This document shows positions 8,918 to 14,743 of a stretch of DNA of 45,950 bases, in pieces. Source of the stretch: Saprospiraceae bacterium (lineage in GTDB: Bacteria; Bacteroidota; Bacteroidia; Chitinophagales; Saprospiraceae). Location: NCBI GenBank assembly GCA_020627965.1, contig JAHDFX010000015.1, positions 1 to 45,950 on the forward strand. Reading direction: 5' to 3'. A program made the translations under genes and the position numbers. The stretch's first letter is position 1. Every line of letters starts with the position of its first letter. The notes below the pieces were generated by a model. That model did no database searches. It saw only the letters and a program-made list of their open reading frames with translations, and was not told where the DNA came from.

Positions 8918-10333
8918 TCAGTTTTTCAAGTCATTAATTTTACTGTGTAACCAATATCGGGCAAAAATTCTCTTTGTGTTGCTTAATTTCTCTTGAAGTT
9001 TATCTCTGGTTACATCCTTTTTATATGGAGCTTCTACAAGTATTCTGACAAATCGGATAAAATTTTTGGGATAGTCTTTAGTAGTGTCAGCAATTTTGTC
9101 ATTCCTGTTTAAGTATTTATTGAAATTATTACATTCTAATATAACAACATCGGTATCTGTTTCAAATTCATAATGACATTGAATAGCCAAAGTACGCGTA
9201 TAAAGCGCATAGGCACCGCCCATTTGTCGGAGAATAAGCAGACTGTCTTTATAGGCACCTTCGGCAAAGCAGAGATAAGCTCTGGCAAGTTGAGACGCAT
9301 TTTCTTTCTCAACATCTGTCAAATACTGTTCATAATTAGATATAAAAATTTTCAACCATTCTGCTCTTTCGAGGGTAGTTGCCAAATAAGATATATTAAT
9401 AAAGTGGGTAGCCGGCACATAGCCGTCTTCCAATAAGAGATCATTATTAATTTTATAAACATATAAGTCAAATATTTTTTGAGTATATTTTAGATCACCT
9501 TCGCCCAGTCGACTATTGGCATGAGCGAGCAAAAAATTAAGCAGGGTTAGTTTTTCATCAATATTACCTAAGTGGAGTTGGTCGTAGATCAGCGTTTCCA
9601 GCTCTTCATAAGTTTCATCTCGTTTTTCATAAAAGAGTTCGAGTGTCAGGTTATAGATTTTGAACAGCTTACTATGCTCATCATAACTAGGTTTTTCGAT
9701 TTCTTTACGTACTTCATCAAGAAGTGCGATAGAATGTTTTCCTGCCAGCATTTGTTGCTGTGTCATCATTTCACCACTGTAACGCAATTTTACGGCGCAG
9801 AAAAACATATCCATGTATTCCATAGTTCTTTGGATGTCAACCTGGTCTTTGTATTTCTTCGATGTACTGGAGTAGAAAAAGGCCTCGTGCATAAGTTGCC
9901 ATTGGTAGAAGAAGTAAAACATATCTCGCTCAATTGAGTTTTCTAGTTTAGCGCCTATGTTTTTGATGCTACGATAGAAAAGCTCATCCATTTTTCTTTC
10001 TTTCATAGCATCTAAAAGTAAAAAATCTCTTGCGTAGGATTTTTTACGTGTTTCTGTCAGTATAAGATAGTCTTCAAGCTTACTGCTCAGGTCGCTCATC
10101 CAGTCATTTATTTTCCTGTTTTTGCTACTTTCTCCTCCCATGTGTTTCTTTGCAAACACCTCTTTATCAATCTTTTCTGAGTCATATTTAGGGTGAAATT
10201 TCTTCACGTAATTGTATAGAGTCAATAGGTTTTTGTCTCTATTAAAAAAGGGTGTTTTCAAGTACCTCCCGAACTCTAAAAGCTCTGTTCTCGACAATCC
10301 GCTGAAAAGTTTTATCAATTTACTCTTGTGCAT
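8918..10333 (-). CDS. Hypothetical helical-repeat protein
   Basis: A 471-residue cytoplasmic protein with no signal peptide or membrane segment. It is almost entirely helical by composition, with regularly spaced aromatic and Leu residues suggesting TPR-like or similar alpha-solenoid repeats. The N-terminus (LIKLFSGLSRTELLEFGRYL, then SPYFN-like TPFFNRDKNLL) matches my memory of a recurrent family of uncharacterised proteins in Saprospiria, where the phrase 'L..FL.SP.FN' recurs. No catalytic motif is visible. The gene stands alone: the neighbour at 8439 is convergent and the one at 10767 is divergent. Its function is unknown; a scaffold or adaptor role would be a guess. Confidence 0.8.
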   Translation of the reverse strand: MHKSKLIKLFSGLSRTELLEFGRYLKTPFFNRDKNLLTLYNYVKKFHPKYDSEKIDKEVFAKKHMGGESSKNRKINDWMSDLSSKLEDYLILTETRKKSYARDFLLLDAMKERKMDELFYRSIKNIGAKLENSIERDMFYFFYQWQLMHEAFFYSSTSKKYKDQVDIQRTMEYMDMFFCAVKLRYSGEMMTQQQMLAGKHSIALLDEVRKEIEKPSYDEHSKLFKIYNLTLELFYEKRDETYEELETLIYDQLHLGNIDEKLTLLNFLLAHANSRLGEGDLKYTQKIFDLYVYKINNDLLLEDGYVPATHFINISYLATTLERAEWLKIFISNYEQYLTDVEKENASQLARAYLCFAEGAYKDSLLILRQMGGAYALYTRTLAIQCHYEFETDTDVVILECNNFNKYLNRNDKIADTTKDYPKNFIRFVRILVEAPYKKDVTRDKLQEKLSNTKRIFARYWLHSKINDLKN

Positions 10334-10766
10334 GTTGCTTGTTTTTTGTTCAAAAAAAATCGGGAGAAAAAAAGGATCATTTTTTATATTTTCTCCTTTA
10401 TTTAGAATTGATAACCAATTATTTGTGAAAAAAAATCTTGAAAAATCATTTTCATAAATTTACAAAAAAAAGTGAGAGAAAGAGAAGATAATGGGCTTTT
10501 TTTACAATCAAAATACCCCGATAATTGTATTGTAAACGGAAACGAAGGGACACTTTTAAAGAAGTTTACACAAGTTAATTGAAAAGACCGGCACTGAATT
10601 CTGGAGGAAATATCAAGCTTTTTATACATAAAAAATGCTAAAAAAATGCAGATGATATTTATCAAAAATATAAAGGCTAAAATATTCTTTGATACATATT
10701 GTTTGAGAATGAAAAACATACATTAAATAACATCTCTTATGCTCAAAGAGAAAAAACAATTGTACT
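10334..10766. promoter_or_regulatory. Divergent AT-rich intergenic region
   Basis: These 433 bp lie between two divergent genes and should hold both promoters. Near-matches to the Bacteroidota -7 box with one extra spacer base are present (TATTCTTTG and TATTGTTTG, within 10680-10710) upstream of the 10767 gene, but no exact TAnnTTTG was found. A 105-residue minus-strand frame here looks non-coding. Confidence 0.35.
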
Positions 10767-11045
10767 ATGAAAAGCAAACATTCAATTTTCTATCTGCTTT
10801 GGCAGCAGAATACGATTAGTAACTGGCCTATATATCATAATCTATATGACAAATGCCATGCTGATCTAACGAAACACTGTTTACCAATGCTGGGCGATAA
10901 AAGCGCAGCCCGAATAATCGCTTATGAAGCAATTCTAGAGCTGTTCGTTCAACTGGATTACAGGAAGGTTAAAAACCCTGATATATGGATTATTAACCTG
11001 GTCGCTGAAAAATGTCAACATTACAGGACAAATGCAGTGACCTAA
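10767..11045 (+). CDS. Short protein resembling sigma-70 region 2
   Basis: A 92-residue protein. The core (LYDKCHADLTKHCLPMLGDK, then an EAILELFVQL helix, a short linker, and PDIWIINLVAEKCQHYR) follows the helix order and spacing of ECF sigma-factor region 2: an LY-x-x-C/Y first helix, an acidic or amide 'EA' helix, and a W-I-x-x-hydrophobic-A-x-x-x-C/R last helix. A full ECF factor would continue for 80-100 residues with region 4, which is absent; the frame ends at TAA 11043-11045 and no continuation was seen in the other plus frames. It could be a truncated relic, a decoy or a genuine single-domain protein. Residues for promoter melting are not well conserved. The structured element region follows directly. 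Confidence 0.5.
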   Translation: MKSKHSIFYLLWQQNTISNWPIYHNLYDKCHADLTKHCLPMLGDKSAARIIAYEAILELFVQLDYRKVKNPDIWIINLVAEKCQHYRTNAVT

Positions 11046-11091
11046 TACAACATGAAATTTATTTGATTTTACCTTTTTATTTCTCAGCCGA

Positions 11092-11178
11092 ACAAAGTGA
11101 AAGACCACAACTCGCGAATGATACGAGGACTCTAAAACAGGAAAATAAGGTTGGGTTTTTCACGCTTGTTCACTTTGT
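11092..11178. repeat. 10-bp inverted repeat enclosing 67 nt
   Basis: ACAAAGTGAA (11092-11101) is the exact reverse complement of TTCACTTTGT (11169-11178). The enclosed part contains a small CTCG/CGAG stem and GGTTGGGTTTTT, a string also present in the loops of both copies of the 65-bp element downstream. Confidence 0.5.
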
Positions 11179-11229: not shown

Positions 11230-11255
11230 TCCGACCGGACATGTGTCTGGTCGGA
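11230..11255 (+). ncRNA. Hairpin upstream of element copy 1
   Basis: TCCGACCGGAC (11230-11240) pairs with GTCTGGTCGGA (11245-11255) around an ATGT loop: 11 bp with one G-U pair. It ends 9 nt before the conserved 65-bp element and occupies the same relative place as a hairpin of different sequence upstream of copy 2. The strand shown assumes the reading direction suggested by the T-run after copy 2. Confidence 0.6.
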
Positions 11256-11264
11256 CAAGAATTA

Positions 11265-11329
11265 TCATTTGCCGTTCCCACTATGGAAGTCCGCCCTGGT
11301 ATTCGTTGGGTTTTGTCAGGGTGGATTCC
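11265..11329 (+). ncRNA. Structured 65-bp element, copy 1
   Basis: The element starts with TCATTTGCCGTTCCCACTAT and continues as a hairpin. The 5' arm 11285-11301 (GGAAGTCCGCCCTGGTA) pairs with 11314-11329 (TGTCAGGGTGGATTCC) over 16 bp with one bulged G (11289); the 12-nt loop contains GTTGGG. Copy 2 differs at four positions: one in the loop and three in the 3' arm. All three arm changes keep pairing: T300-A318 becomes T-G at the equivalent pair, G-T becomes G-C and T-G becomes T-A. No T-run follows copy 1. The type (small RNA, regulatory element or dispersed palindrome) is open. Confidence 0.6.
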
Positions 11330-11403
11330 ATATACTAAAAGACAATCGTTAGTGGATAATTAAGATTATCTACCTGATTATAAGATGCATTATTTGTTAA
11401 GTT

Positions 11404-11423
11404 ACCTAAAGCACATTTTAGGT
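11404..11423. repeat. Small AT-rich stem, ACCTAAA / TTTAGGT
   Basis: A 7-bp perfect stem closes a 6-nt loop (GCACAT). It is flanked on both sides by the octamer GTTAAGTT (11396-11403 and 11422-11429), which also occurs at 11212 upstream of element copy 1. Confidence 0.4.
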
Positions 11424-11484
11424 TAAGTTGATTTTGTTTTCTATTTGTTTTTAATCCCTCTCAACGGTGAGGTATTAAAAAAAA

Positions 11485-11541
11485 GAGTTTGCAGACACTG
11501 AATAGCGTTCCCTTTATTTGCAATTCAGTATGCACAAACTC
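11485..11541 (+). ncRNA. Hairpin upstream of element copy 2
   Basis: GAGTTTG (11485-11491) pairs with CAAACTC (11535-11541), and ACTGAAT (11497-11503) with ATTCAGT (11523-11529), separated by a symmetrical 5x5 internal loop. It ends 11 nt before the conserved element. Its sequence is unrelated to the hairpin upstream of copy 1, so this part of the module varies while the downstream 65 bp stay constant. Confidence 0.55.
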
Positions 11542-11552
11542 ATGTGGGTCAT

Positions 11553-11625
11553 TCATTTGCCGTTCCCACTATGGAAGTCCGCCCTGGTATTTGTTGGGTT
11601 TTACCGGGGTGGATTCCTTTTTTTT
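11553..11625 (+). ncRNA. Structured element copy 2 with T8 tail
   Basis: The 65-bp element (11553-11617) has 61 of 65 positions in common with copy 1. The hairpin pairs 11573-11589 with 11602-11617 over 16 bp, with the same bulged G (11577) and a 12-nt loop. Eight Ts (11618-11625) follow immediately, so this copy could end a plus-strand transcript like an intrinsic terminator. It lies 178 bp past the stop of the convergent SNF2 gene. A small RNA made of the variable hairpin, the constant 20-nt linker and the terminator-like hairpin is one reading; a dispersed palindrome is another. Confidence 0.6.
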
Positions 11626-11803: not shown

Positions 11804-14743
11804 TTATTCTAGCAAAAATTCAATATCCTCTTTTTCAAAACGAATTTTATCATTATTTTCAATAATATCTTCGGCTAATTTTGTTTTTCTTTCCTGCAAT
11901 TTCAGAATTTTTTCCTCAATCGTGTCTTTTGTGATGAATTTCATAGCAATTACATTACGGGTTTGTCCTATTCGGTGTGCTCTTGCGATAGCCTGACGTT
12001 CAGCAGATGGATTCCACCAGGGGTCGGCAATGAACACATAATCAGCAGAAGTTAGATTAAGTCCTGTACCTCCTGCTTTCAGAGAGATAAGAAAAAATTG
12101 ATTATCTGGCAATTCTTTGAAACGCTTGATCTCCGCTTCTCTTTTCTTTGAAGACATATCGCCTGTCAATAATGAATATTGCCAACCTTGTTTTTCAAAA
12201 CGTTCTTTGAAGAATTTTAGATAACTGACAAACTGAGAAAATATCAATGTCTTATGCCCGCCTTTTCTCAACACCTCCAAATGATGTACAATGTCATCAA
12301 ATTTGCCCGATCCATGTGCATATTCTTCAAGATAAAGGCGAGGATGATTGGCAATTTGCCGCAATCTGAGCAGGGTTTTTAATACTACCATATTGAATTT
12401 GGGGTTTCCTTTAGCGATATTTTCAAGAATAAAATTTCGGGCAGATGATTTTTCTTTTTCATACACTTTCTTCTGCTCTTTAGTCATCTCGCTATAGAAT
12501 ATTTTCTGGGTAAGGTCGGGCAAGTCTTTTGCCACAGACTCTTTAGTTCGTCTCAATAAATAAGGTGCAATGAGCCGGCGAAGTTGTTCTTGTTTTTCTT
12601 CATTGTGCATTTTTTCAATGGGCTGCAAAAATTCTTTTTTGAAAAATGGAAAGGTACCCAGCAATTTCGGATTGATAAACTGCATTTGAGACCACAGATC
12701 AGATAAAGAGTTTTCTATGGGGGTACCGCTTAGAGAAATTTTATGTTTTGCAATTAATGAATTTACTGCACCAAATATCTTGGATTCTCTGTTCTTAATT
12801 TGCTGGCTTTCATCCAGTACGATATATTCAAACTCCAGTTGTTGCAAAATATTAACATCTTTCAAAGCCGTATGGTAAGTAGTTAATATTATATCAAATC
12901 CCCGCAGGCGAGCAGCAGAACGATAGCGTCGTACACCTATATGACTATAAACGCTCATTATTGGGGCAAATTTATTAACCTCATTTTTCCAGTTGAACAC
13001 CAGAGAAGCCGGCAAAATAATCAATGCATTGAGCGGTACACCTCCATTTTCTTCTACATCATCAAACAGACGTGTTTGAATTGCCTGAACGATCTTTTTC
13101 CTGGATTGTTTTTGTTTGTCTTTCTGTTCTTTAGCATACAATAAAGCAGCAATAGTCTGCAAAGTTTTTCCCAAACCCATATCATCAGCCAGACAAGCTC
13201 CGAGATCGTTTTTATACAAATGGATTAACCACTTTATACCCTCCAACTGATAAGGTCGAAGTTTTGCTTTTAAGGTTTCTGGACTTTTATAACGGATACG
13301 TTTATAATTACCTGACAGGGTTTTTTGTGATTTTTTATCTTGTTGTTCCAGACTCAGCTCCTGAAGTACTGAAAATCTACTTTTTAAGATTCTCACCTTT
13401 TTGTCTCCCAATTCTCCCATACGAAAAACTTCTTCGTATTTTGCCATCCACTCTTCCGGTATGAGAAAAAACCGTCCATCAGGCAAGGGGTAGAAACGAT
13501 CTCCCGTACCAATATATTTTGCCAGTTTGATAAAAGGAAAAGTAAAAGCCCCCACAACCACATCACCATACAGATCAAACCAATCTTTATCTTTAGATAA
13601 ATTCAATTGAATTTCAGGTGTATTGAGCAGTATTCTTTTATTTTCAAATAATGGTTCAGCTACTTCAAAACCAACTGACTCCAGTTCGGTTTTGTGTTCG
13701 ACCAGCCATTGCATAATGGTATCGGAATTAAGTTTTTCATTAAGCTCTGTCGGAATGAAAAGCCCATATTCCGGTTGGACAGACCGCTCTTCAAGCTTAG
13801 CCATGAAAGCTTGCTCCTCAGCTACATCACGCTTGTGCTGATAAATGATAATGTCGTCGTTTTTATCAAATTCGAGACGGGTTTTTTGCTGTATTGTCTC
13901 ATTAAAATCAAAACGCAATACATTGTACCTAAACCGCAATGAAAGCCCATAGCGCTTGTTTAGAAAATTGTGACCAACACTTAATTCGGCAGCCGATAAC
14001 TGATTATTAACACTTACCTGGAAGCCTTCTGCTTTAATATCGGCTTTGGAAGCTACACGAAGAATGAACTTTTGAAAATACTCTTTTGCGTAATGTCCGG
14101 GAATACGAATTTCGTCTTTGTTGAGAAATGGTTTAACCATATTTCCGTTGATACCGGGTAGCTCCCATAAAACACGATCAACTACTATCCATCCAGGTTC
14201 ATTAGTCAACACAACAATATCTCTTTGCATGATTTTCCAATGCGTTTTATTATTCATAAAACTCAGGCGATAGAGAATATCTTTTTCCGTTTTTTTAAAA
14301 AAAAGCCGTGGTGTAAGCGGATGTTGCAGGGCTTTGATTTGCTTGGAAGGAATATAGTCTTTCCTAATCGTATTTAAAGAAATAATCAGTTCATGTTCCT
14401 TTATAATACTCAGAAAAGCATGCAAATTGCGATGCACATAAAGAATGATTTGTTTTTTGACATCTTTATTTTCAATGAGCTTATAAATATTTTTTTTCCG
14501 TTTTCCTGTGTTGTTAAATTTATCTTCCAATGCTTTGATCTGGAGTTTATCAATCAGATCAAACAACTGGGTGCGCTCTGGTGTTAGCTCAAGTCCGTAA
14601 TCTTTGATGGTTTGGGCATGTACCTTGTGGGCTGCATAGGTCATCATGCCCTTATCATTGGTATGCACCACAAAGGCAGCTGGCAAGTATCCCAGCTCCT
14701 CATATTCGGTCAGGTCGTAAACAATTTTGTAAATAAGGCTCAA
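11804..14743 (-). CDS. SNF2-family helicase-like ATPase
   Basis: A 979-residue protein of the Swi2/Snf2 type, which uses ATP to move along double-stranded DNA and displace bound proteins such as stalled polymerase. The C-terminal half holds the helicase core: DMGLGKTLQT (Walker A, about 520), LDESQQIK (motif II as DESQ, about 641), LSGTPIENSLSDLWS (motif III, about 672), then helicase-C motifs SLKAGGTGLNLT, DPWWNP and QAIARAHRIGQ (motif VI, about 922). The first 450 residues are the poorly conserved N-terminal domain of bacterial Snf2 proteins. The start is TTG at 14741-14743; a TAG lies three codons upstream in frame and the first ATG is about 30 codons in, after conserved-looking sequence, so I keep TTG. 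It stands alone between convergent and divergent neighbours. Confidence 0.93.
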   Translation of the reverse strand: MSLIYKIVYDLTEYEELGYLPAAFVVHTNDKGMMTYAAHKVHAQTIKDYGLELTPERTQLFDLIDKLQIKALEDKFNNTGKRKKNIYKLIENKDVKKQIILYVHRNLHAFLSIIKEHELIISLNTIRKDYIPSKQIKALQHPLTPRLFFKKTEKDILYRLSFMNNKTHWKIMQRDIVVLTNEPGWIVVDRVLWELPGINGNMVKPFLNKDEIRIPGHYAKEYFQKFILRVASKADIKAEGFQVSVNNQLSAAELSVGHNFLNKRYGLSLRFRYNVLRFDFNETIQQKTRLEFDKNDDIIIYQHKRDVAEEQAFMAKLEERSVQPEYGLFIPTELNEKLNSDTIMQWLVEHKTELESVGFEVAEPLFENKRILLNTPEIQLNLSKDKDWFDLYGDVVVGAFTFPFIKLAKYIGTGDRFYPLPDGRFFLIPEEWMAKYEEVFRMGELGDKKVRILKSRFSVLQELSLEQQDKKSQKTLSGNYKRIRYKSPETLKAKLRPYQLEGIKWLIHLYKNDLGACLADDMGLGKTLQTIAALLYAKEQKDKQKQSRKKIVQAIQTRLFDDVEENGGVPLNALIILPASLVFNWKNEVNKFAPIMSVYSHIGVRRYRSAARLRGFDIILTTYHTALKDVNILQQLEFEYIVLDESQQIKNRESKIFGAVNSLIAKHKISLSGTPIENSLSDLWSQMQFINPKLLGTFPFFKKEFLQPIEKMHNEEKQEQLRRLIAPYLLRRTKESVAKDLPDLTQKIFYSEMTKEQKKVYEKEKSSARNFILENIAKGNPKFNMVVLKTLLRLRQIANHPRLYLEEYAHGSGKFDDIVHHLEVLRKGGHKTLIFSQFVSYLKFFKERFEKQGWQYSLLTGDMSSKKREAEIKRFKELPDNQFFLISLKAGGTGLNLTSADYVFIADPWWNPSAERQAIARAHRIGQTRNVIAMKFITKDTIEEKILKLQERKTKLAEDIIENNDKIRFEKEDIEFLLE

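Follow-up and report, generated by a model that had tools for sequence, protein, structure and literature searches.

To our knowledge, few regulatory RNAs have been described in Bacteroidota outside Bacteroides, and our search found no literature on noncoding RNA structure in Saprospiraceae. Many tandem sibling sRNAs of other hosts depend on Hfq. RbpB, which binds sRNAs in Bacteroides, is an RRM_1-class protein. In Bacteroides, it was found that RbpB binds FopS, an RNA roughly 65-70 nt long whose seed is 5'-terminal and which is present in 14 copies (PMC11697453). For the NmsRA and NmsRB pair of Neisseria, Shine-Dalgarno targets and stringent control were shown (PMC5362039).

In this paper we looked at a window of 45,950 nt, positions 1 to 45,950 of contig JAHDFX010000015.1 of a Saprospiraceae bacterium (G000), whose genome of 6.4 Mb lies in 409 contigs and whose nearest named relatives are Saprospiraceae metagenome assemblies. 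A 65-nt element occurs twice on the same strand (11265-11329 and 11553-11617), and the copies are 94% identical and 288 nt apart. The pair makes up a new RNA family, of a kind already known; within the genomes searched it is confined to one genus, and Rfam lacks it. The locus probably encodes two tandem sibling sRNAs on the plus strand (Table 1).

Table 1. Features of the two-copy locus and its surroundings, in window coordinates.
Feature	Position	Strand	Evidence
471-aa all-helical protein, divergent neighbour kept in synteny	8918-10333	-	Sequence comparison, paralogue search
92-aa protein with the predicted fold of region 2 of ECF sigma factors; precedes the pair in every case	10767-11045	+	Sequence comparison, structure model
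Long covarying stem (arms 11090-11111 and 11150-11171) that lies before copy 1, new beyond the first-pass annotation	11090-11171	+	Covariation, folds
Copy 1 variable 5' hairpin	11230-11255	+	Folded in copy 1 of 4/4 genomes; 39% sequence identity
Copy 1 lead TCATTTGCCGTTCCCACTAT, a constant 20-mer that is single-stranded and the putative seed	11265-11284	+	19/19 columns invariant, 4 genomes
Copy 1 hairpin of 16 bp, one G bulged, with the conserved loop GTTGGGTTTT and, in this genome, no T-run	11285-11329	+	Covariation over 8 copies, fold
18-nt box GTTAAGTTGATTTTGTTT ahead of copy 2, candidate promoter or binding site of a regulator	11422-11439	+	Identical in four genomes
Copy 2 variable 5' hairpin (limits approximate)	11485-11541	+	Folded in copy 2 of 4/4 genomes; 27% sequence identity
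GTGGG before copy 2 lead	11544-11548	+	Four-locus alignment; 6/7 columns invariant
Copy 2 lead, same as copy 1 lead	11553-11572	+	Repeat comparison
Copy 2 hairpin then T8, terminator-like	11573-11625	+	Fold, covariation, T-run

The two copies in this genome share an identical 20-nt lead, followed in both by a stem, about 16 bp long, in which one G is bulged. They differ at four places, one in the loop and three in the 3' arm, and all three arm changes preserve pairing. A hairpin precedes each copy, and a run of eight T directly follows copy 2. The element had been described in these terms in a first-pass annotation of the window, and that description is correct in every detail. As plus-strand RNA the two copies fold at -22 and -26 kcal/mol, versus -17 and -18 kcal/mol for the minus strand. 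The whole plus-strand units, compared with shuffled sequences, give z = -4.1 and -3.5, and none of 200 shuffles was as stable.

The host genome contains exactly two copies of the element. Of 60 relatives searched, the only ones found to have it belong to three other species of its genus, each likewise with two copies, at a spacing of about 295-481 nt. The pair is kept in all four near-complete genomes of the genus with order and orientation unchanged and in the same place relative to two neighbouring genes; the remaining two genus genomes, which are without it, are 69% complete, and absence there says little. A covariance model built from the eight copies was searched in 398 genomes of the family and 395 of the class, and its matches are confined to this genus bar two, both of which were rejected: that in G310 sits within an apparent methyltransferase gene and that in G517 within a 626-aa reading frame resembling cytochrome oxidase subunit I. 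The remark that the element matches no named RNA family was borne out, as Rfam gave no credible family for it at strict or relaxed thresholds. The duplication itself seems to be older than the split of the four species, since copy 1 of G002 and G005 shares an insertion and a deletion that are missing from their copy 2. Copy 1 of G000 appears to be partly overwritten by copy 2. When compared with copy 1 of G003, its 5' arm is copy-2-like and its loop and 3' arm carry copy-1 letters, as after partial gene conversion.

A duplicated imperfect palindrome with a constant 5' part could also be a feature of single-stranded DNA or of a mobile element, such as an IS end, a REP sequence or an attC-like site. 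The element does not behave as an IS end or REP sequence: there are only two copies per genome in fixed synteny and none elsewhere in the 398 family and 395 class genomes, no recombinase gene adjoins them, the plasmids and phages searched gave no match, and the G-U pairs formed on the plus strand favour RNA. Together these make a feature of this sort very improbable. In viral contigs two 16-mer matches, both without the stem, were seen at roughly the number expected by chance and were set aside.

Over the eight copies, 95.5% of the stem cells are paired and both sides have changed in 7 of 16 pairs, although these copies are few, being seven distinct sequences from four genomes. The covariation score of 0.40 was reached by none of 500 shuffles, which ignore relatedness, and control structures slid by one to three columns, which keep it, score 0.06-0.14. 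The fold reading had been staked on finding further copies with compensatory changes; six were found in the three other species, and the compensatory stem changes across eight copies and four species establish selection for the fold. The GCCGTTCCCACTATGG stretch of the lead is identical in all eight copies, every one of the 19 lead columns is fixed in copy 1, and 9 of 10 loop columns are fixed, so that the constant part takes in the loop as well as the lead. Lead and loop are fixed whilst their flanks have drifted to 27-40% identity: among the four genomes, identity is 27-39% in the upstream hairpins and 32% from copy 1 to the box, with 68% in the 92-aa gene. The upstream hairpin is folded in all eight copies (z -1.4 to -3.8) and its sequence is not conserved, and the picture of a variable upstream hairpin on a constant scaffold thus holds in every copy and across species.

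The same conservation could in principle protect a small protein, as an invariant ATG at the end of the lead (about 11283 and 11571) opens a frame reading M[ED][VI]R..I.WVL..WIP, and this frame is open in all copy-2 loci for 21-50 codons. Yet third positions are not where the changes fall; of 67 changed codons 54 are nonsynonymous, the frame differs between the copies, the tail is not conserved, copy 1 has a shifted frame in two genomes and, in a third, meets a stop after 13 codons, and the changes track pairing. We regard such an ORF as scarcely credible. What is found in each of the four genomes is two highly similar, putatively noncoding copies in which structure rather than coding sequence is conserved.

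Several pairs of the stem are of the G-U type when read on the plus strand, including one that is G-U in every copy; on the minus strand they would be A-C mismatches. At least six T occur within 8 nt after six of the eight copies; the run after copy 1 is absent in G000 and weak in G003. A strict terminator scan reported none, as the loop is longer than such a scan allows. An RNA or a single-stranded DNA fold had been proposed at first; the selection for a fold stands, and plus-strand RNA is favoured over single-stranded DNA by the G-U pairs, the T-runs and the strand asymmetry of stability. The gene downstream differs between genomes, being an SNF2 helicase in G000 and G003, a gene like that of glycogen-branching enzyme (glgB) in G002 and an NqrA-like gene in G005 (for the latter two, the name comes from the translation), and the elements are therefore not leaders of a fixed gene; the lack of a conserved downstream gene disfavours a cis-leader. 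In this genome the helicase is a 979-aa SNF2-family protein (11804-14743), which adjoins the pair in G003 too and whose closest NCBIfam models (DpdE, ZorD and pilus-regulating Snf2 proteins) all score well below their cut-offs. Further along, the minus strand carries a long polysaccharide-type cluster (16347-36922) with an O-antigen ligase, glycosyltransferases, asparagine synthase-like proteins and an MBOAT acyltransferase.

The conserved unit is larger than first described: another covarying stem, the third, lies upstream, and the stretch that separates the copies holds an invariant 18-nt box. In the stem, 58 of 62 cells are paired and double changes occur at 7 of 16 positions in the four genomes, in an alignment made by hand that leans towards structure. 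Each genome matches the box perfectly just once, at this locus. Before the copy 2 lead, GTGGG is present in all four genomes and it is missing before copy 1. Its complementarity suggests that it can pair with CCCAC of the lead (11565-11569), a pairing that gets no help from covariation as both sides are invariant.

One rival explanation is that the elements belong to one long RNA, the 3' UTR of the gene for the 92-aa sigma-like protein, in which they act as cis terminators or stabilisers and are perhaps processed. Copy 1 starts 220 nt downstream of the stop codon of this gene on the same strand with the covarying stem between them, copy 1 has no T-run in G000, and the protein and the RNA pair always occur together. 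Against this, a terminator needs neither an invariant 19-nt lead and loop nor two copies, and the invariant box between the copies is placed as an independent promoter would be. We consider the 3' UTR explanation unlikely. A promoter of the Bacteroidota type (TTG-N-TAnnTTTG) was sought at the loci and no fit was found, which speaks against separate sRNAs.

The more probable arrangement is the pair of sibling sRNAs. From 5' to 3', each RNA, with putative ends, would carry a hairpin that is free in sequence, then a C-rich single strand of about 20 nt that is constant (UCAUUUGCCGUUCCCACUAU), and lastly a stem-loop. This stem-loop would be an intrinsic terminator, or be derived from one, with a constant G/U-rich loop. 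By analogy with other sibling sRNAs, the constant stretch and perhaps the loop may form base pairs with mRNA targets, or an RNA-binding protein may hold them. Two copies may serve dosage or separate control. In copy 2 the seed could be hidden by the upstream GUGGG, which is missing from copy 1, and the two copies may thus be controlled differently. Genomic near-matches to the complement of the lead were not clearly above a reversed control, in a search that short seeds escape, and pairing of the lead or loop with the leaders of the neighbouring genes was no better than shuffled.

All six genomes of the genus encode RRM_1 proteins, which favours the sRNA reading, and a search for Hfq found none, which counts against it. 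Another hypothesis, which we hold to be distinctly unlikely, is that the RNAs are decoys whose lead and loop form a binding site that sequesters an RRM_1-type protein or the 92-aa sigma-like protein. It would fit with the most constrained parts being unpaired, with the sigma-like gene that always adjoins, with the presence of RRM_1 proteins and with two copies, which suit titration. Known decoys of the CsrB type carry many binding sites; here there would be a single site per RNA, and the binding is itself putative.

The 92-aa protein is 63-76% identical among the four genomes, and among the family genomes searched its gene occurs only in the same four as the RNA pair. Its model has a pLDDT of 90 and its best PDB matches in Foldseek are ECF sigma factors at region 2, with weak E-values and with nearly all of the best matches being sigma factors. 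Full-length ECF-like factors are its distant paralogues. Based on the model, it would have only the region 2 fold of an ECF sigma factor, the promoter-melting region, and its link to the RNA pair is a lead rather than a result. As a more speculative and improbable option, the RNA pair and the protein may be one module, in which the structured RNAs bind or steer the truncated sigma factor, an RNA-controlled mini-sigma. RNA-guided transcription, which was prompted by one structure among the sigma-fold matches, was rejected: no CRISPR-type protein was recognised beside the pair and no usable literature was found.

On the other side of the 92-aa gene, the 471-aa protein is part of a large, unnamed family of paralogues: it has 34 matches in this genome (itself included), mostly at 20-31% identity, and is TPR-like at best; Pfam, NCBIfam and PADLOC gave no family for it. 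The idea of one RNA pair for each 471-aa paralogue was rejected, as no such local repeats were found near 20 stretches checked. Direct repeats of 80 and 73 nt, 267 nt apart, lie near a paralogue in L084 (6745-7201) and are probably internal to a protein gene. Between the divergent 471-aa and 92-aa genes (10334-10766) there are conserved motifs, AAAAAAATCGGGAGAAA and ATACCCCGA, and an inverted repeat, TTGTATTGTAAAC...GTTTACACAAGTTAATTGA; the motifs of this stretch are partly duplicated in G002 and G005.

The pair gives a well-supported RNA family in Saprospiraceae, whose clear constant seed and loop can be tested, and the genus-specific sigma-region-2 protein that adjoins it may be a partner or regulator. 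Among known systems, REP/BIME elements and IS ends share the imperfect palindrome with a constant lead, but many dispersed copies or a transposase would be expected of them and neither was found here. OmrA/OmrB, PrrF1/PrrF2 and AbcR1/AbcR2 (reviewed in PMC4211561) share tandem duplication and the division into constant and freely varying parts; they belong to other hosts, and the element matches none of them in Rfam. The FopS model, whose structure was deposited in Rfam and which we assume to be in release 15, gave no match here at the gathering or a relaxed threshold. The FopS/GibS family of Bacteroides (PMC11697453) resembles the present pair in that both are paralogous sRNAs of Bacteroidota, putative here, with a constant single strand followed by a terminator hairpin, here a terminator-like one, and the protein class of RbpB, which binds the family, is present in this genus; the present locus differs in that its two copies lie in tandem, each with a variable hairpin before the seed and with a loop that is constant. 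NmsRA and NmsRB (PMC5362039) come from another phylum and have three stem-loops, and are likened to the pair by layout and not by sequence, and in that layout two tandem siblings each carry, as here, a first stem-loop, a constant pyrimidine-rich single strand and a second stem-loop with a constant loop.
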